From IMG/VR virus record IMGVR_UViG_3300046314_000075, positions 1 through 23,851 of that record: a stretch of 23,851 nucleotides of DNA; one strand, given 5' to 3'. This stretch comes from a virus. This document shows positions 2,302-23,851 of this stretch, in pieces (position 1 is the first letter of the stretch; each line of letters begins with the position of its first letter). The notes below the pieces were generated by a model. The model was not told where the DNA came from and did no database searches. It worked only from the letters and a program-made list of their open reading frames with translations. Position numbers and translations under genes: made by a program.

Positions 2302-4517
2302 TGATCGACCTTGATGACGCCCCTGAGGGCTCCAAGAAGTCCAAGGATGATGTGCTTGAGCTTGGTCGTGCGCGGCTAGAGCAGGCGATCACCGTCCTGA
2401 CGCCTACGCGCGACCTGGAACTTGAAGACCTGAAGTTCGCGGCTGGGTCGTCGGACAACAACTACCAGTGGGACGAGGGTGTGCTGGCGGCGCGGGTGTC
2501 GGATGAGGACGCGCGTCCTACGCTGACGATCAACAAGCTGCCGCAGCACATCAAGCAGGTCACGAACGACGCGCTCCAGAACCCGCTCGCGGGCAAGGTG
2601 GTGCCTGCTGACGGTGAGGGTGACCCTGAGATCGCAGAGATCTACCAGGGTGTTATTCGTCAGATCGAGGCGGACAGTGACGCTGATGTGGCGATCAGCA
2701 CCGCGAACGAGAACCAAGTCACGTTTGGCGAGGGTTACTTCCGCATCCTGACCGAGTTCGTCGATAGCAAGTCGTTCGACCAGAAGATCGTCATCGGTCG
2801 CATCCGCAACTCGTTCTCGGTCTATATGGACACGAACGCGCAGGATCCTACTGGTCGTGACCAGGAGTGGTGCTGGATCCTTGAGGAGATCAGCAAGACC
2901 GAGTACACCAAGAAGTACCCGAAGGCCACGCCTATCTCGCAGTTGAACGACCTGGGCGTCGGCAACAAGTCGATGGCGGGTTGGATTGGCGACACGACGA
3001 TTCGCATCGGCGAGTACTTCTACCGTCACACCGAGATGGGTACGCTGCACCTGTATCCGAATGGTGTGAGTGTGTGGAAGGGTAGCCCTGAGGACGCCCA
3101 GCTTCGCGAGATGTACGGTGAGCCGATCAACTCGCGCGAGTCGGAGAAGGTCAAGCAGATCAAGTGGGTCAAGACCAACGGCGTTGACATCCTTGAGGAG
3201 TCGGTGTGGGCGGGTGAATACATCCCTGTCGTCCGGGTGCTCGGCAACGAGTTTGAGATCGACGGCGAGGTGACGTACACGGGCATCGTGCGTAACGCGA
3301 AGGACGCGCAGCGCCGGTACAACTACCTCGCGAGTGCTGAGATCGAGATGATCGCGCTCGCTCCGAAGGCCCCGTTCATCGGCTACGCCGGTCAGTTCGA
3401 GGGTTACGAGGACGACTGGAAGACGGCGAACCGGAAGAACCACCCGTACTTGCAGGTCAACACGGACGTTACGGACAGCGAGGGTCGGATGGTCCCGCTG
3501 CCGCAGCGTGCGATGCCCGCGCAGCCGCAGAGCGGCATCATCGCGGCTAAGATGGCTGCCTCTGAGGAGATCAAAGAGACGACGGGGCAGTACAACGCCT
3601 CGCTCGGTCAGACCTCCAACGAGCGCACGGGCAAGGCGATCCTCGCCCGTCAGGCTGAGGGTGACAAGAGCACGTACCACTACCTGTCGAACTTGAGCCG
3701 TGCGGTGCGTCATATGACCCGCATCCTCATCGACTTGATCCCGAAGATCTACGACACCCAGCGCGTCATTCAGGTGATGGGCGAGGATGGCGAGTCGAAG
3801 CCGGTCAAGATTGACCCTGAGCAGCCGCAGGCCGTGACGGAGAACGTGAACCCGCTCACGCAGGTCGTGGAGAAGATCTACAACCCGAACGTCGGCAAGT
3901 ACAGCGTCATCCCGATGGCTGGTCCCAGCTACGCTACGAAGCGCCAAGAGGCTGCTGAGGCGATGAGCAAGATCATCCAGACGAACCCACAGTTGATGGG
4001 CACCGCTGGTGACATCCTCGTCAAGAATATGGACTGGCCGGGTGCTCAGGAGGTCGCGAAGCGGCTTGCCAAGACCATCCCGCCGGAGCTTATGTCTGAC
4101 GATGACCCCGCTGTTCAACAGGCCAACAAGAAGGTCGAAGAACTGATGGGTCATCTTGAGCAGGCGATGAAGATGCTTGAGAACGTGAAGAACTCCCAAG
4201 AGGCACGTGAGTTGCAGATCAAGGAGTACGAAGCGGAACTCAAGGGTCGCGAGATTGGGATCAAGGAGCAGGAAGTTCAGGTCAAGTGGATGGACGCTGA
4301 GACTCGCCGGTTCCAGGCTGTGAGCGCGTCGAACCCCGAGGCGTTGACGGCTGATCAGATCCACGACATCGCAGCGGGTACAGTAGACGCGGCGCTCGAC
4401 CAGTTGATGCAGCCACCGCTTGAGATGCCCGAGCCCGAAATGCCACAACCCCCGCCGATGCAGCAGGGTCAACCCGAGCAGATGCCCGAGGAGCCTCAAG
4501 CTCCTCCGATGATGTAG
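2301..4517 (+). CDS. Portal protein, P22 gp1-like
   Basis: Forms the dodecameric ring at one capsid vertex through which DNA is packaged and ejected. The 738-residue length is close to P22 gp1 (725). Family-typical features are the N-terminal 'RPTLTINKLPQHIKQVTND' segment (about 69-87), the 'EQVTFGEGYFRI'-type region near 136-150 and the central 'SNERTGKAILARQAEGD' helix (about 435-451), all common in P22-type portals. A long charged coiled coil spans roughly 598-675 and a Pro/Met/Gln-rich tail fills about 700-738. In P22 the C-terminal barrel sits in this region and senses packing. It overlaps terL by one base. An AGGAGG just after its stop serves the next gene. Confidence 0.94.
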   Translation: MIDLDDAPEGSKKSKDDVLELGRARLEQAITVLTPTRDLELEDLKFAAGSSDNNYQWDEGVLAARVSDEDARPTLTINKLPQHIKQVTNDALQNPLAGKVVPADGEGDPEIAEIYQGVIRQIEADSDADVAISTANENQVTFGEGYFRILTEFVDSKSFDQKIVIGRIRNSFSVYMDTNAQDPTGRDQEWCWILEEISKTEYTKKYPKATPISQLNDLGVGNKSMAGWIGDTTIRIGEYFYRHTEMGTLHLYPNGVSVWKGSPEDAQLREMYGEPINSRESEKVKQIKWVKTNGVDILEESVWAGEYIPVVRVLGNEFEIDGEVTYTGIVRNAKDAQRRYNYLASAEIEMIALAPKAPFIGYAGQFEGYEDDWKTANRKNHPYLQVNTDVTDSEGRMVPLPQRAMPAQPQSGIIAAKMAASEEIKETTGQYNASLGQTSNERTGKAILARQAEGDKSTYHYLSNLSRAVRHMTRILIDLIPKIYDTQRVIQVMGEDGESKPVKIDPEQPQAVTENVNPLTQVVEKIYNPNVGKYSVIPMAGPSYATKRQEAAEAMSKIIQTNPQLMGTAGDILVKNMDWPGAQEVAKRLAKTIPPELMSDDDPAVQQANKKVEELMGHLEQAMKMLENVKNSQEARELQIKEYEAELKGREIGIKEQEVQVKWMDAETRRFQAVSASNPEALTADQIHDIAAGTVDAALDQLMQPPLEMPEPEMPQPPPMQQGQPEQMPEEPQAPPMM

Positions 4518-18785: not shown

Positions 18786-19057
18786 ACCCCGACCAGAACA
18801 CCATCCTCGTCCTGGCCTTCGCAGCGGGTGTGCTCGCGTCGACCAGCACCGAGGTCGTGAACCGAGCCACGAGTACCAAGCTGTCCGTCGCCTTCCTGCG
18901 CCTCATCACGATGGGGTTCGTGGTCGCGCTGGTCGTCACGTTCGCGCTGCTCCAGGCCGCCGGGAAGGGCGTTGCGTGGGACGCCGTGGGTGCTCAGACC
19001 TTGGCCGCCTGGTTCGTGGCTCTGGGCGTCCACGACGCTGCAGGGAAGAAGGACTAG
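18782..19057 (+). CDS. Putative holin
   Basis: A 91-residue hydrophobic protein translated from the ATG in the ATGA overlap with the endolysin stop; an in-frame GTG at 18773 would add three residues. Hydrophobic segments are about residues 7-22 ('TILVLAFAAGVLAST'), 38-58 ('FLRLITMGFVVALVVTFALL') and 68-84 ('VGAQTLAAWFVALGV'), giving two or three membrane passes. The C terminus is short and charged (AAGKKD). Small size, multiple membrane segments and coupling to the endolysin gene fit a holin. The single-pass protein at 18118 is the other candidate, and the two may act together. Confidence 0.78.
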   Translation: MNPDQNTILVLAFAAGVLASTSTEVVNRATSTKLSVAFLRLITMGFVVALVVTFALLQAAGKGVAWDAVGAQTLAAWFVALGVHDAAGKKD

Positions 19058-19090
19058 ATCTACCCCGACTCGCTACCGGAGTAGGACCAC

Positions 19091-19128
19091 AAGAAGCCCC
19101 GCGACCTTCACAGGCGGCGGGGCTTCTT
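19091..19128 (+). terminator. Hairpin terminator after the late operon
   Basis: AAGAAGCCCCGC (19091-19102) pairs perfectly over 12 bases with GCGGGGCTTCTT (19117-19128) around a 14-base loop, 33 bases after the holin stop. There is no long U tract, but the A-rich start and T-rich end of the arms could let it work in both directions. Confidence 0.8.
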
Positions 19129-19168
19129 GCTGGCACAACCCAACACCAGGACACCCATCATACCAGAA

Positions 19169-19196
19169 ACCCCCGCGGCGGTGAAGCAGCGGGGGT
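19169..19196. terminator. Second hairpin, possibly bidirectional terminator
   Basis: ACCCCCGC (19169-19176) pairs with GCGGGGGT (19189-19196) around a 12-base loop. On the plus strand it is followed by CTTGGTTTAG. On the minus strand the arm runs into TTTCTGG, so it could stop the convergent operon ending at 19393. Confidence 0.6.
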
Positions 19197-19392
19197 CTTG
19201 GTTTAGTAGTGGCACCACACCCTGACGGATGCTACGGCTCTCACAGACAGGCAGGTTCGCCAACACTACTACCGAAAGGTGAAGGGGTGATGCGAGCAGA
19301 CCCGCACGTCAGAGAGCCCCTACGGTCTGACTGGCACCAGGGCGGGTGGTGTGAACACGTACCCTGAACGACCAGGAGAGAACTTTATCACA
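19197..19392. other. Intergenic stretch between convergent operons, with hairpins and a possible tiny ORF
   Basis: No established gene. TAGTAGTG (19204-19211) can pair with CACTACTA (19264-19271) enclosing 52 bases, and GTCAGA (19308-19313) with TCTGAC (19326-19331). A 25-codon plus-strand frame (ATG 19290 to TGA 19367, beginning MRADPHVREP) is preceded by AAGGTGAAGGGG, which could act as a ribosome site, but the peptide has no recognisable feature. No tRNA cloverleaf was found. The stretch could be a small RNA, a spacer, or a remnant. Confidence 0.4.
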
Positions 19393-19824
19393 CTACTTCG
19401 CGGAACGCAAGCGTGAAGCTCGGCGACTCAGAGTTTCACGCCTGACACCGAGGCGGCGAGCCACAGCTTCCAGCGTTTCCCAGTTCTTACGGTCAGCAAG
19501 AGCTGCTGCGACTTGCTCATCGGTAACGTCGGGAGCGTACTTGGCGTGGTCGGGTGACACACACCATCGGTCGCCACAGGACGTTACCAGACGACGGGTC
19601 GGTAGTTCACCGTGACGGTATGCCCACGCTGCCCGGCGGGCGTGTACTCGCTCGCCCTGGTACTGAGCAGATGGCTGGCGACCACCCTTTGCACGGCAAC
19701 CCATCACCGCACCCGTCCACTTCCAACACCCACCGACTTGCTCGACCTGAGTCATCAAGTCGTCCTCGGTGTGGAGCAGGCTCCTGTTCGACAGAGGACG
19801 AGCCGCCCGATCACAACTTCTCAT
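19393..19824 (-). CDS. HNH-type endonuclease-like protein with C-terminal HTH
   Basis: A 143-residue protein whose ATG overlaps the stop of the zinc-ribbon gene (TGATG). The middle matches the phage HNH pattern: 'GGCWKWTGAVMG' (about 31-42), 'HARRAAWAYRHGELPTRRLV' (62-81), then 'TSCGDRWCVSPDHAKYA'. In most relatives the segment after the 'hG.ip' motif reads 'v.H.C....CvnPdHl'. Here the first His is replaced by Thr (VTSCG), while the CxxxxC and PDH parts remain, so catalytic activity is uncertain. A C-terminal segment 'WETLEAVARRLGVRRETLSR' looks like a helix-turn-helix. Probably a free-standing homing endonuclease or its DNA-binding derivative at the operon end. An earlier in-frame start (20058) is rejected because it would run through the helicase end and the zinc-ribbon gene. 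Confidence 0.75.
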   Translation of the reverse strand: MRSCDRAARPLSNRSLLHTEDDLMTQVEQVGGCWKWTGAVMGCRAKGGRQPSAQYQGERVHARRAAWAYRHGELPTRRLVTSCGDRWCVSPDHAKYAPDVTDEQVAAALADRKNWETLEAVARRLGVRRETLSRRASRLRSAK

Positions 19825-19964
19825 CACCACACCTTCTTCTTGGGTGCAAGTCGTTTCGCCAAACATTCCACGCACCATCGTCCGTTGCCGTGCGGGGTGA
19901 AGCTGGACGCCAGCGCCGAGACGATGCCGCAGCCTGAGCAGCCGTACCACGTTGTAGGTTTCAT
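19824..19964 (-). CDS. 46-residue zinc-ribbon protein
   Basis: A short gene linked at both ends: its ATG lies in the helicase stop (ATGA) and its TGA overlaps the next ATG (TGATG). The peptide begins MKPTTWYGCSGCGIVSALAS, continues through SFTPHGNGRWCVECLAKRLA and ends PKKKVW. Two CxxC pairs (C9/C12 and C31/C34) separated by 18 residues form a textbook zinc ribbon, and the C-terminal KKK is basic, so nucleic-acid binding is likely. Its position between helicase and HNH genes suggests a replication or recombination accessory role; that is inference. Confidence 0.8.
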   Translation of the reverse strand: MKPTTWYGCSGCGIVSALASSFTPHGNGRWCVECLAKRLAPKKKVW

Positions 19965-22900
19965 ACACCCTTCTCCAGTCGGTACTGCTTAACCGACCTG
20001 CGTAGCCCGTCCTGTGTCGTCGCCTTACTGTCGAGTGCGATAGACTGAATCTGGTCAACTGTCTTCGTCACCATAATGCGGTGACACATCACTGGCTTGC
20101 CCTGACCCTGCCTGAGAATACGCGCGTTCATCTGTGAGTACAGGTCGAGGCTCCAGTTCAGACCGAACCAGACGATGACGTTGCCATTCTCCTGCAACCC
20201 GTCGATCCCGTGGCCGGCGCTGGCCGGATGAGCAAGCATCAGTGGACAGTCGCCAGACTTCCACCGTCGCATCGCCTCATCTAGCGACTTCTGCGACTTG
20301 CACTCGGTCAGGTTGACGGGCTTCAAGTCCTTGAACCGCTTCATTATGCGGTCAGCGTCACTCTTGAACGAGTACGCGCACAGCACCGGGTTGCCCTGCG
20401 CCTCGTCGATAATGTCTTCTAGTGCGTCTAGCTTGAGGTCGTGGACCACCTGGTAGTCGCTGCTCTCGGTGTTGTGATACAAAGCGCCCGCCCCGTATTG
20501 GAGGCAATTATGAGCGATGAACACCTCACCGTTACGACCTCTTACGGTGAATCGGTGACGTGGGCCTGCGTTGATGATGTCGTAGACACGGGTTTGAACA
20601 GGTCCATCCCCGACCATCCCCGGTCCATCCGTTTGCGTATCGTGATACCTTGTAGGTTGAACACCCTCGCCGCCTCGGCAACCGTCATAGGACCGAACCA
20701 TGTTTGAACGATCACGTTGAATCGAGTGTTGTTGCCCTGTTCCTGTCTGGTTGCCCAGCGACAGTTTTCCTTGTGATAGTTCCCGTTCACGTCGATGCGA
20801 TCGAGCGTCAAGTCGTCCGAGTAACCGTGTGACATATCTGACCAGAACTTGTCGAACTCGTTCCACTCGGGACACACTGTAATCCCGCGCCCACCGTAGT
20901 TCTTCCAATCCTTGTCTTGAGGGTTGGCGCATCGAGAACGCATCGCCATCCAACTCACCCACGGACGAGTATGCGACATTCCGTGGGTCTTCTTCCACTT
21001 GCCGTGGGCACACCCGCAAGACTTGACTGCTCGCTGTCTGTGTGTTGACCGCAGACTTTGACCTTGCAGTACCAGTTCGTTCCCACAGTCGCACTTGACT
21101 CGCCACGTAGCGCGTGCGGAAGTGCTGTTCTTCCTCTGAACACTCCCCTCCCTCGACATCACTGTAAGGAGTCCGAACCGCTGCCCGGTCAAGTCCTTCG
21201 CCGGATTGCTCATTCAGAACCTCGTGCGCCTCACGCCACCCCTGGTTCGTCAAAACCTTGTGGTCAGGGGTCATACCGACACCCCAGCACTCTACCACGT
21301 TCTTATAACCGTTGCAAGCGATACCGGAAACGTTTACCCATTCTACGCCGTCCCAAACTTGGTCAGCAGACGTGACGATTTCGATTCGCTTCCATCCGTC
21401 GTATGTCAAAACCTCGGTGCCCTCAGCGAGACATTTATTCATCAGCGCGGCCTTGTTGAAGACCTCGACAGTACACTCGTCAAGCTGCAAGAACATCTCG
21501 CGTTCTAGCTTCTCGTAGTTGTCGCGCAGCTCGCCGGTCATCTCGATCGAGATGTCGTTGACGATCATATCCGGCAGCGGGTTGTAGTCCGCTGCTGACA
21601 TCTCCAGCGTGATGTCCGAGATGAGCGCCTTGATGTCCGTCTCGGCGTTCGCCATCGGCACCTCCTTGTATGGTCCTTCCTTGTGGTAGAACTTCGTCTT
21701 GAACGGCGTCTTGTGTCGCCCGAGCCGCTGACCCTTGTCGATGACGAGGTACTGGCCGTGGAGATCCTTGTAGCCGTTGGACGCAGGTGTACCCGTGAGT
21801 CCCGTCGTCCAGTCGAAACACTGCTCGATCTTCAAGAACGACTTGACCCGGTTGGTGGTGCTATTCTTCATCTTAGAACAGTTGTGGACTAGGACTCCTC
21901 CGACGTAGTAGGTTTCCGCCTCCTCGACATGGATATTCCAAACATCGACGCCACTTCCTTGTTCGTGATGTAGAACACTTTCCACCCACGTTCCTCCAGT
22001 AGAAGTCGCTTCTTCTCGTCCCTCATTTTCCCAAGGACGGTACTGTGCGACTGACCCTGAACTTCGATAGCTATCTTGTTCACAGGGTCCGCAAAGTCGA
22101 TCTTGTAGTGAGTCGGATAACCCTCCGACTTCTTGATCTCCCTGAAGATGTACTCTTGCTGGAACTGCGGCGGTAGCATCGTACGTAACAAGTTCTCTGC
22201 CCACGAGCCACCCGTCCCGTTCCCGCCGTTCAGGTGTGAGTGATCGAGCCTCTTGTGTGACTCGCTCATTTTTGAACGCATTTCCTCGGGCCAAGGAATC
22301 CCCTTGTTCCAAGTCCCGTACTGTTCGCGGTGTCTCTGTAGCGCCTTGATCCCACCCGAAGTGATCGCCTTCTTCACTTCTGGTTGTTGCATCCTCCAGG
22401 TGCTCGCGCACGCCTTGGAACAAGTGAACTGCTCGTCCCTCCGCTTCCAGAACACCGCCTGGCAAATCTGACAAGACCCTTCCCCGAATCTCCGAATGTT
22501 GTGGGGCTTCATTCAACACATCACCCTTCTTCAAGTTGCCCGCGGCAACCCAATCGTCACCCACACTAAAGGGGTGATTAGGGGTGCAACGCAGCACGCT
22601 ACCGTTACTCAACCGCACATCGACAAGCGATGTCGTGGTCTTCTGCATCGTGTTCAACACACGGCGAGGACCGATGTGGGTAGATACTACGTCGCCAATC
22701 TTCAACTTGTCAATAGCAATATGAGAATCTGGTGTCTGAACCAGGGTGCCTTTGACGAAGCACTCGTCCCATACCAGCCCGTTCGCAGGCACCGGGATAC
22801 CCGCTGACAAATAGTAAGTGTGGAGGAAGCTGGACAACCACTTCAAGTTCTCGTAGTTCACAAGGTACACGTCGGCAGGCTGCATCATCGCCCTGGAACG

Positions 22901-23227
22901 CGAGTCCTTGTTGCCCGTCACCAGCGAGAACTTGAGGTGCTTCGTGTGCTCCCACTTGAGAGCTTCCTGCCGCCAGACCATCTTGCAGACCCGGATGGGT
23001 GCGACGATGATGACGCCGCGCAGCACACCCAGCTTGCGCAGGTGGGAGATGGTGCTCAAGGTGATAACCGTCTTGCCCAGACCCATATCGAGCCACATCA
23101 TCGAGTTAGGCATCGATGTTTGGTGTATGATCGCCTTCTGCTGGTAGGGGAACAGGTCAGCAGCCGAGCGCAGGGCCTTGGTCGGCGGGGGCTTAGTGAC
23201 CGTTAGGAAGGAAGGTACGGGGAGCAT
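19961..23227 (-). CDS. SNF2/DEAD-type DNA helicase precursor with two inteins
   Basis: The precursor is 1088 residues; removal of two inteins leaves a 485-residue helicase of the SNF2-like type common in phage replication regions. Numbered from ATG 23227: Walker A DMGLGKT (47-53), VAPIRVCKMVWRQE (motif Ia region), motif II VWDE/CSK (split after E155), motif III TGLTGTPASNG, NK/CLQYGAGALY (split), and motif V LAHPASAGHGIDGL. Motif VI is QMNARILRQGQ. The start at 23227 overlaps the VRR-NUC stop (TGATG); an in-frame ATG at 23248 would add seven residues inside the upstream gene. Because intein 1 splits the catalytic DE motif, the ATPase should be inactive until splicing. The last bases overlap the zinc-ribbon start. 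Confidence 0.93.
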   Translation of the reverse strand: MLPVPSFLTVTKPPPTKALRSAADLFPYQQKAIIHQTSMPNSMMWLDMGLGKTVITLSTISHLRKLGVLRGVIIVAPIRVCKMVWRQEALKWEHTKHLKFSLVTGNKDSRSRAMMQPADVYLVNYENLKWLSSFLHTYYLSAGIPVPANGLVWDECFVKGTLVQTPDSHIAIDKLKIGDVVSTHIGPRRVLNTMQKTTTSLVDVRLSNGSVLRCTPNHPFSVGDDWVAAGNLKKGDVLNEAPQHSEIRGRVLSDLPGGVLEAEGRAVHLFQGVREHLEDATTRSEEGDHFGWDQGATETPRTVRDLEQGDSLARGNAFKNERVTQEARSLTPERRERDGWLVGRELVTYDATAAVPARVHLQGDQEVGGLSDSLQDRLCGPCEQDSYRSSGSVAQYRPWENEGREEATSTGGTWVESVLHHEQGSGVDVWNIHVEEAETYYVGGVLVHNCSKMKNSTTNRVKSFLKIEQCFDWTTGLTGTPASNGYKDLHGQYLVIDKGQRLGRHKTPFKTKFYHKEGPYKEVPMANAETDIKALISDITLEMSAADYNPLPDMIVNDISIEMTGELRDNYEKLEREMFLQLDECTVEVFNKAALMNKCLAEGTEVLTYDGWKRIEIVTSADQVWDGVEWVNVSGIACNGYKNVVECWGVGMTPDHKVLTNQGWREAHEVLNEQSGEGLDRAAVRTPYSDVEGGECSEEEQHFRTRYVASQVRLWERTGTARSKSAVNTQTASSQVLRVCPRQVEEDPRNVAYSSVGELDGDAFSMRQPSRQGLEELRWARDYSVSRVERVRQVLVRYVTRLLGRLDARSHRRERELSQGKLSLGNQTGTGQQHSIQRDRSNMVRSYDGCRGGEGVQPTRYHDTQTDGPGMVGDGPVQTRVYDIINAGPRHRFTVRGRNGEVFIAHNCLQYGAGALYHNTESSDYQVVHDLKLDALEDIIDEAQGNPVLCAYSFKSDADRIMKRFKDLKPVNLTECKSQKSLDEAMRRWKSGDCPLMLAHPASAGHGIDGLQENGNVIVWFGLNWSLDLYSQMNARILRQGQGKPVMCHRIMVTKTVDQIQSIALDSKATTQDGLRRSVKQYRLEKGV
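20507..21433 (-). mobile_element. Intein 2 in the helicase (NK/CLQ site)
   Basis: A 309-residue insertion, precursor residues 599-907. Splicing features: first residue Cys in CLAEGTEVLTYDGW (block A), block B 'GVGMTPDHKVLT' with TxxH, a block F-like 'RVYDIINAGPRHRFTV', and the end VFIAHN followed by extein Cys (block G). Extein flanks NK and CLQYGAGALY join to a normal helicase sequence. The in-frame middle (about residues 75-280 of the intein) has no LAGLIDADG or HNH motif and looks like shadow translation, because a complete HNH gene lies there in the +1 frame (20542-21213). Splicing domains are about 80 residues (N) and 25-30 residues (C), the size of a mini-intein. Confidence 0.93.
20542..21213 (-). 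CDS. HNH homing endonuclease nested out of frame in intein 2
   Basis: A 223-residue gene in the +1 frame relative to the helicase/intein frame, same strand, wholly inside intein 2. Domains: 'DLTGQRFGLLTV' start typical of a phage HNH family; zinc-ribbon cysteines CDCG (41-44) and SCGC (65-68); 'MRSRCANPQDKDWKNYGGRG' and 'ITVCPEWNEFDKFWSDM'; HNH core 'LTLDRIDVNGNYHKENCRWA' (135-154) with EQGNN after it; C-terminal HTH 'MTVAEAARVFNLQGITIRKR' (176-195). This order is diagnostic of free-standing HNH homing enzymes. The start ATG is preceded by ACGAGG with a 6-base gap. The last 18 residues are low-complexity and coincide with intein block F, suggesting the domain proper ends before them. Likely cuts intein-less helicase alleles. 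Confidence 0.9.
   Translation of the reverse strand: MSNPAKDLTGQRFGLLTVMSREGSVQRKNSTSARATWRVKCDCGNELVLQGQSLRSTHRQRAVKSCGCAHGKWKKTHGMSHTRPWVSWMAMRSRCANPQDKDWKNYGGRGITVCPEWNEFDKFWSDMSHGYSDDLTLDRIDVNGNYHKENCRWATRQEQGNNTRFNVIVQTWFGPMTVAEAARVFNLQGITIRKRMDRGWSGMDLFKPVSTTSSTQAHVTDSP
21881..22762 (-). mobile_element. Intein 1 in the helicase (WDE/CSK site, motif II)
   Basis: A 294-residue insertion, precursor residues 156-449, immediately after the Walker B Asp-Glu. Splicing features: first residue Cys in CFVKGTLVQTPDSHIAIDKL (block A), block B 'LRCTPNHPFSV' with TPNH, 'NLKKGDVLNE' closing the N domain, block F 'VDVWNIHVEEAETYYVGG', and the end VLVHN followed by extein Cys-Ser-Lys. Flanks rejoin to LVWDECSKMKN, a standard motif II. 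Residues between about 90 and 270 of the intein carry no endonuclease motif in this frame; instead an EDxHD-type endonuclease gene occupies the +1 frame (21889-22512). The last His-Asn and +1 Cys are intact, so splicing should be functional. Confidence 0.93.
21889..22512 (-). CDS. Vsr-like (EDxHD) homing endonuclease nested out of frame in intein 1
   Basis: A 207-residue gene in the +1 frame relative to the helicase frame, wholly inside intein 1. It starts with a zinc-finger-like segment (C14/C17 in SCQICQ and C31/C35 in TCSKAC), then a NUMOD3-like DNA-binding motif 'GTWNKGIPWPEEMRSKMSES' (66-85) and a Gly/Asn-rich 'LNGGNGTGGSWAENLLRTML'. A PD-(D/E)XK/Vsr-like core follows with E106, 'YKIDFADPVNKIAIEVQGQS' (136-155, D139, E150), H156, and D165 in 'RDEKKRLLLEERGWKVFYI'. 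The usual 'EVDGxxH' reads EVQGQSH here. The ATG (22512) has AGAAGGG 11 bases upstream. The stop TAG falls in the GVLV codons just before the final His-Asn, so its tail overlaps the C-terminal splicing block. Confidence 0.88.
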   Translation of the reverse strand: MKPHNIRRFGEGSCQICQAVFWKRRDEQFTCSKACASTWRMQQPEVKKAITSGGIKALQRHREQYGTWNKGIPWPEEMRSKMSESHKRLDHSHLNGGNGTGGSWAENLLRTMLPPQFQQEYIFREIKKSEGYPTHYKIDFADPVNKIAIEVQGQSHSTVLGKMRDEKKRLLLEERGWKVFYITNKEVASMFGISMSRRRKPTTSEES

Positions 23228-23517
23228 CAGATTCCTAGACCCGCACACATACTGTTGATGATGTCCTTACCCTGGTCGATGTTGTCCACGACGTAGACCT
23301 GCACATTCTGTTGACGCAGGCGAGTGTGCTCGCGCTCCTGCGCTGGGGTCGGCGACTTGCCCTCTGCCTTGAACTCTATGAAGAAGATATGACCCGACGG
23401 CAGCACCATCATACGGTCAGGTACAGCAGCTCGGTTGGGGCTGGTGAACTTGTACGCGAGGAAACCCTTGCTCTTGGCGTAGTCGCACACAGCGGCTTCT
23501 ATTTCACGTTCCAACAC
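23227..23517 (-). CDS. VRR-NUC domain nuclease
   Basis: A 96-residue single-domain PD-(D/E)XK nuclease. Pattern: 'VLEREIEAAVCDYAKSKGFL' (E4/E6 region and G18), 'NRAAVPDRMMVL' (D34 in VPDR), 'GHIFFIEFKAEGKSPTPAQE' (E48-x-K50, Q60), then 'VQVYVVDNIDQGKDI'. All catalytic positions are present. The start is taken as GTG 23517, where TAGTG overlaps the stop of the upstream gene; an in-frame upstream start would run into that gene. The stop overlaps the helicase start (TGATG). VRR-NUC proteins next to SNF2-type helicases are common in phage replication modules and act on branched or flap DNA. Confidence 0.9.
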   Translation of the reverse strand: MLEREIEAAVCDYAKSKGFLAYKFTSPNRAAVPDRMMVLPSGHIFFIEFKAEGKSPTPAQEREHTRLRQQNVQVYVVDNIDQGKDIINSMCAGLGI

Positions 23518-23816
23518 TACGACACCGACTTCCCATCGAACCAAAGGATGAACAGGACGCAGCAACAAGCGTGCGCCAGGTGATGCAGACCACTCTCCTC
23601 GTCGTTGACCTCGCCACGGTGCCAGGCGTCGAGGTGACGCATAGCAGCGTCGTAGTAGCGGGTCTTGGCGTCAGGCACTTGGCACCAGTTGTTTTTCGAG
23701 TATTTCGTAGCGCCGTACTCCAGCACCGCGATGACCTGGATGATCGTGCCGCTGGGCAACAAGGACCAACGAGGCTTGGTCGCGTCAAGCTTGGTGCCGA
23801 CATCTGACTTAGTCAT
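23517..23816 (-). CDS. dATP/dGTP diphosphohydrolase-like protein (DUF5664 type)
   Basis: A 99-residue protein with a pattern I recognise as the phage domain annotated as dATP/dGTP diphosphohydrolase N-terminal (DUF5664, MazG-like fold). The pieces are LDATKPRWSLLP (10-21), 'VLEYGATKYSKNNWCQV' (31-47), 'RYYDAAMRHLDAWHRGE' (53-69) and 'DEESGLHHLAHACCCVLFIL' (72-91). The His and acidic residues (RH, E, DEESG, HH) are those expected to hold metal. It would hydrolyse purine dNTPs or related nucleotides. Start ATG 23816 is preceded by TGGAG at short spacing. In the same frame upstream codons encode YQRGDHYRLEH without a stop to the window edge, so a longer N terminus cannot be excluded. Confidence 0.8.
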   Translation of the reverse strand: MTKSDVGTKLDATKPRWSLLPSGTIIQVIAVLEYGATKYSKNNWCQVPDAKTRYYDAAMRHLDAWHRGEVNDEESGLHHLAHACCCVLFILWFDGKSVS

Positions 23817-23851
23817 GTGCTCCAGGCGGTAGTGATCCCCACGCTGGTACT
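23813..23851 (-). other. Possible 3' end of an upstream gene at the window edge
   Basis: A minus-strand frame enters from the right edge (STSVGITTAWST) and stops at TGA 23815-23813, which would overlap the ATG at 23816 as ATGA, the coupling used elsewhere in this operon. Too short to identify; the frame continuous with the next gene (YQRGDHYRLEH) is an alternative. Confidence 0.3.

Follow-up and report, generated by a model that had tools for sequence, protein, structure and literature searches.

Inteins are usually described as one polypeptide in which the endonuclease is an in-frame domain. The locus studied here raises the question whether an intein can share its DNA with a homing endonuclease gene that is read in another frame and translated on its own. 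The window (the whole stretch of 23,851 nucleotides that was analysed, a metagenomic fragment, IMG/VR record IMGVR_UViG_3300046314_000075) contains on its minus strand a SNF2-family helicase gene (19961..23248) of 1095 codons, which hosts two inteins and has a predicted spliced product of 492 amino acids. The gene is matched by the Pfam models SNF2-rel_dom (3.9e-12) and Helicase_C (7.4e-7) and by PHROG 62, DNA helicase (8e-103). Because the helicase of phage DSL-LC05, about 63% identical to that of the window, lacks both inteins and has a continuous NKCLQ, the empty insertion sites of both are fixed. Intein 1 (21881..22762, minus strand, 294 codons) interrupts helicase motif II at WDE/CSKMK. 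Intein 2 (20507..21433, minus strand, 309 codons, Cys1 to Asn309) occupies the site NK/CLQ and extends from the Cys after AALMNK to the Asn preceding CLQY. Two minus-strand ORFs adjoin the helicase gene. The one directly upstream (23227-23568) is small and VRR-NUC nuclease-like, with a weak Pfam match, and a nuclease gene likewise precedes the helicase in DSL-LC05. The downstream one (19393-20058) contains a WKWTG...CVSPDH stretch which by eye resembles a free-standing HNH protein; a Pfam search of this ORF gave no model above the cut-off.

We conclude that intein 2 is very probably a dual-frame mobile intein, in which one stretch of DNA encodes in two frames a splicing intein and a homing endonuclease that is translated on its own. 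In the helicase frame (frame 0) the intein has no stop codon, compared with 8 in +1, where the longest open run is 223 codons, and 16 in +2, where it is 67. The N-terminal half of a Hint domain (21214..21433, minus strand, CLAEGTEVLT...MTPDHKVLTNQGWREAHEVL) has a mean column identity of 56% in alignment A2 and a block pLDDT of 76-98. The C-terminal half (20507..20587, minus strand, VYDIINAGPRHRFTVRGRNGEVFIAHN) is conserved in all aligned relatives, with a block pLDDT of 94-96. All terminal residues (C1, N309 and the +1 Cys) are present. In the motif alignment of 25-28 relatives, C1 is invariant (28 relatives), and so are T55 and H58 of block B (T..H) and D285, F295 and H308 of block F/G. The AlphaFold2 model of the 309 residues is confident only at about residues 1-90 and 281-309, and its top Foldseek matches are intein structures (Mtu RecA intein, 8.5e-4, probability 1.00). 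The overlapped middle has pLDDT mostly below 50 and is predicted to be disordered; this, together with low frame-0 identity, led us to reject the middle as a functional protein in its own right. Splicing blocks around a motif-free middle, as proposed in the initial annotation, are thus borne out. Terminal residues, a Hint fold with its blocks and precise absence from a homologous host gene all mark the element as an intein, which, judged by these features, should splice itself out of the helicase.

Read in +1, the middle of intein 2 contains an HNH homing endonuclease gene (20542..21213, minus strand) of 223 codons plus stop, running from ATG to the stop codon. A Shine-Dalgarno-like GAGG lies ahead of the start at 21220..21223 on the same strand (CACGAGGTTCTGA-ATG; duplex energy -6.6). 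The tail of the gene overlaps the first part of the Hint C-terminal half, and the frame-0 landmarks C1, TPDH, VYDIINAGPRHRF and HN/C lie outside the overlap. These boundaries of intein 2 and of its nested gene, like the insertion site and the phase, are exactly those given in the initial annotation. The ORF matches PHROG families 374 (6e-59) and 3377 (1e-48), both HNH; no HNH model matched it in a Pfam search. Residues C41, C43, C68, H77, N150 and C151 are invariant across 48 nested relatives and C66 is conserved in at least 90%, in agreement with the zinc ribbon and NCRWA core recognized earlier. The window protein is full length and carries all family-invariant residues. The AlphaFold2 model of the +1 HNH protein has a mean pLDDT of 89.5; a sequence search found no solved relatives, and the confident model gave no significant Foldseek match in the PDB.

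To assess how widespread this arrangement is, relatives were drawn from HNH loci and by scanning with the frame-0 Hint alignment, a search that did not look for HNH, although the alignment was built from nested members. They comprise 84 distinct inteins with a nested HNH gene, 55 in +1 and 29 in +2; the count in frame is zero. One locus (L205) contains an N, and its status is uncertain. The +2 genes belong to another, more distant HNH subfamily and sit mostly at a different polymerase site (CGYG or CILG), host labels for this set and for locus L061 resting solely on sequence motifs. The phage sequences that match the window HNH best are each nested in +1 within a DNA polymerase gene, in Caulobacter phages, APSE phages and Shewanella phage SFCi1. 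Isolated phages with an out-of-frame nuclease include Caulobacter RW, APSE-1, Shewanella SFCi1 and Corynebacterium phi673, and the hosts of the layout extend beyond the window helicase to DNA polymerase A and several helicases. An APSE-like polymerase gene (L050) has two inteins, at 1455-2315 and 2787-3707, with nested HNHs in +2 and +1, and two further loci (L216, L221) have a similar two-intein, two-phase polymerase arrangement.

The second intein of the window repeats the layout with an unrelated nuclease. Intein 1 (Pfam Intein_splicing 6.8e-9, Hint_2 2e-7) contains a nested gene of the DUF559 family (21889..22512, minus strand, 207 codons; Pfam DUF559 1.6e-5), again in phase +1, for which codon shuffling predicts 7.4 frame-0 stops where 0 are seen. 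Among 73 DUF559 relatives 68 are nested, every one of them in +1, and the inteins that hold them interrupt many helicases as well as some other hosts. Taken together, about 150 related phage inteins of the HNH and DUF559 lineages share the two-frame layout. The initial annotation had argued from this single gene that two unrelated nuclease families make a reproducible architecture, and had proposed a search for HNH genes nested in +1 in other inteins; the reading is upheld by the 55 HNH and 68 DUF559 cases, and the +2 set came in addition. On a tree of HNH proteins (a quick search, with SH-aLRT support only), nested +1 HNHs cluster in a group of 27 rows, 25 of them labelled nested (SH-aLRT 95), and the 5 members at the helicase site group together (SH-aLRT 98). 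Because of this clustering the +1 HNH arrangement appears largely inherited; the +2 HNH and DUF559 cases look like separate origins.

Are both frames maintained by selection, or is one of them open by chance? When the codons of the window HNH were shuffled with protein and codon usage kept, a mean of 6.98 frame-0 stops was expected and 0 are present (P(0)=0.0002). The same shuffles gave 347 expected stops for the 55 +1 HNH inteins, 104 for the 29 +2 HNH inteins and 553 for the 68 DUF559 cases, with 0 seen in each set, a zero that is itself a matter of selection, as an open host frame was what qualified a gene as "nested". The shuffles are conservative, since the codon pools are already depleted of T-ending codons. 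The evidence therefore resides in the number of relatives that qualify, in the Hint halves at both ends and in the free-standing control that does not qualify, rather than in the absence of stops as such. All nested relatives examined have Hint halves at both ends wherever the locus extends far enough. Of the 175 HNH relatives that were not classed as nested, all but one have stops in the corresponding frame, and the single exception, at a locus edge, is itself part of a polymerase intein.

Substitutions tell the two frames apart. Counted at HNH codon positions 1/2/3 they number 1827/1499/3514 in the +1 set and 236/168/722 in the +2 set (pairs of loci are not independent), and in the adjoining Hint-N region, for which frame 0 was counted, the third position has its usual excess. 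All three lineages (HNH +1, HNH +2 and DUF559) have substitutions concentrated at nuclease position 3 and rarest at position 2. Selection on frame 0 alone would produce the opposite pattern, because in +1 position 2 of the nuclease is position 3 of the host. Moreover, in practically all pairs compared, identity is higher for the HNH protein than for frame 0. A chance ORF is rejected by the shuffles and the substitution pattern, which indicate that the HNH frame is evolving as coding sequence, under purifying selection across the family; the initial annotation had made its reading depend on conservation of this frame. The best explanation for frame 0 through the overlap would be that it is constrained mainly to stay open, the +1 frame carrying the selected protein.

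The choice of phase has consequences for the nested protein. A gene nested in +1 can put a stop into frame 0 only where a codon with T as its last base is followed by AA, AG or GA. Since NNT is always synonymous with NNC (which we checked), any protein can be nested in this phase without amino-acid cost. Correspondingly, codons of +1 nested genes ahead of AA, AG or GA end in C 966 times and in T 0 times, as against a C:T ratio of 2206:1688 elsewhere. In +2, a TGA results whenever Met is followed by a codon whose first base is A. Met before Ile, Met, Thr, Asn or Lys occurs in 0 of 48 instances in +2 HNHs (11 expected) and 78 times in +1 HNHs (81 expected), an avoidance that follows from frame 0 being open. 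Even so, these counts show that +2 carries a protein-level price and +1 none.

How would the nested enzyme be produced? In 40 of the +1 HNHs the start codon lies exactly six codons before a D-x-T-G motif. An SD-like duplex of -5 kcal/mol or stronger precedes all 40 of these starts, compared with 27% of internal ATG/GTG/TTG codons (p=1e-20). The conserved start and SD are strong but indirect evidence, pointing to internal initiation of the nested gene. We propose that the precursor made from the helicase mRNA would self-splice by means of a compact Hint domain, whose halves are joined in frame 0 by an unstructured linker. The linker DNA, read in +1, would serve as a complete HNH gene provided with a start codon and ribosome-binding site of its own, and ribosomes initiating internally on the same mRNA would translate it into a separate enzyme. 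This enzyme would cut intein-less helicase alleles at or near NK/CLQ, and repair would copy the intein across. Homing is inferred here from family membership and distribution.

The distribution fits such a cycle. Among helicase relatives one locus is empty (L006), one has intein 1 only (L275), several have intein 2 only (e.g. L034, L051, L195), and the window and L274 have both; this is the comparison of helicases with and without intein 2 that the initial annotation had called for. Empty, single and double states are those that would be expected of a homing element.

Some relatives have lost parts of the layout. Three mini-inteins (L201:3001-3498, L203:3001-3444, L210:2210-2614) have lost the HNH core by internal deletion with frame 0 left open, and what is left of the HNH N terminus can still be read in +1. 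At L174:3787-4707, in an Arsenophonus endosymbiont genome, the HNH frame is shortened and a stop lies in the C-extein; this is apparently a decaying prophage gene. The host frame of a polymerase intein at L256:3001-3966 has five stops, the nested HNH is intact, and the C-terminal intein half is immediately preceded by an ATG. We considered a recoded phage for this case and rejected it, as the five stops cover all three kinds and recoding of one stop codon would be insufficient. Frame 0 is likewise broken at L225:1717-2721, L263:1717-2721 and L267:1286-2287, where Hint N ends at a stop, the HNH ORF lies between the halves, and Hint C starts from a separate ATG (MLVPVYDI...) just ahead of VYDI, in another frame. 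All three lie in a polymerase-type gene together with a nested intein that is intact. They resemble natural split inteins beside a free-standing homing endonuclease gene (HEG), and such fractured relatives suggest a route from an overlapping endonuclease gene to a split intein.

Several other explanations of intein 2 have to be weighed against a dual-frame element. The window copy might be an ordinary in-frame HNH intein in which compensating indels, or assembly, have shifted the nuclease. The window is indeed a metagenomic fragment, and one decayed relative (L174) does have a shifted frame, but separately sequenced isolated phages have the same phase, the start codon, SD and stop of the nested gene are conserved, and none of the 84 relatives has the HNH in frame, an outcome on which the initial annotation had staked its reading. 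We regard an artefact as extremely improbable. Removal at the RNA level, by an intron with an internal HEG and an incidental frame 0, draws on the textbook knowledge that HNH genes are often carried by group I introns. No Rfam match was found in 19000-23851, however, and an intron would not need a frame 0 that has all splicing residues and is free of stops in 84 relatives; the probability left to it is next to nil.

Two further alternatives accept both frames and differ on the enzyme. The HNH could be reached from the intein frame by programmed ribosomal frameshifting, giving an intein-N/HNH fusion and no free enzyme. A single shift would suffice to reach +1, yet a start codon with SD is conserved at a fixed place, related intein domains have nested genes in both +1 and +2, and some nested ORFs start only a few codons ahead of the conserved start, which makes frameshifting very unlikely. 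Finally, the window HNH might be a dead relic, open only by chance or recency, in an intein that no longer homes. True relics occur among the relatives, three internally deleted and one decayed (L174). Against this stand a full-length protein with every family-invariant residue and a confident model, and the improbability in codon shuffles that both frames stay open by chance; we consider a relic unlikely. The dual-frame mobile intein accordingly stays our preferred reading.

How does this element compare with known systems? Classical homing inteins, HNH inteins included, reportedly have an in-frame endonuclease domain, in a description attributed to Dalgaard in 1997. As in intein 2, the endonuclease interrupts Hint between its N and C halves; there, however, it is part of the intein polypeptide, whereas here it would be a separate protein from another frame, in frame in none of 84 cases. 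Fractured genes with split inteins and a free-standing endonuclease are said to have been described by Dassa in 2009. Their separate HEG between intein halves is the form shared by L225, L263 and L267, but their host is broken, whereas the window and most relatives have an unbroken host gene and intein with the HEG overlapping.

The ShiLan domain, or Pacc40 gp60 insertion, is an out-of-frame HNH in a phage methylase, known from two cases (Arsenault, Gosselin, Gogarten 2025, Genes 16:178, PMC11855218). Like intein 2 it is a phage insertion with an open host frame and an HNH in another frame, and it is inferred to home. Unlike intein 2, whose frame 0 is a Hint intein with catalytic residues, it has no splicing domain and stays in the methylase; its HNH start has no detectable ribosome-binding site, whereas here the SD is conserved, and its two cases compare with about 150 here. 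APSE-1 P45/P46 (NC_000935) shares with the window a +1 nested HNH in the same intein family, in a different host gene; judged from the record annotation only, an HNH ORF overlaps the DNA polymerase, and the overlap is given without the intein arrangement. Only a 140-codon piece of the APSE-1 nuclease is annotated, and that of Caulobacter phage RW is unannotated. In the open-licence literature we found no paper describing out-of-frame endonucleases nested in inteins. Actinobacteriophage inteins with "non-canonical architecture" are the subject of a preprint cited in the ShiLan paper, and related cases may be described there.

We think it rather likely that overlapping-frame coding is the standard organisation of whole phage intein lineages, with at least three origins (HNH +1, HNH +2, DUF559 +1). 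It is free at the protein level in +1, in +2 forbids Met before Ile, Met, Thr, Asn or Lys, and would also offer a route to fractured split-intein genes. If true, overlapping-frame coding would be new as a general class in inteins. That the endonuclease of the intein families studied is a gene of its own, on shared bases, changes the way in which phage inteins and overlapping genes should be annotated. The layout explains apparent mini-inteins with long featureless linkers, and nested inteins are a large natural set in which to measure the cost of dual coding. The suggested path from an overlapping endonuclease gene to a split intein has practical weight because split inteins are tools of protein engineering. 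With about 150 related inteins sharing it, the dual-frame layout is a widespread organisation of these selfish elements and not a sequencing error.
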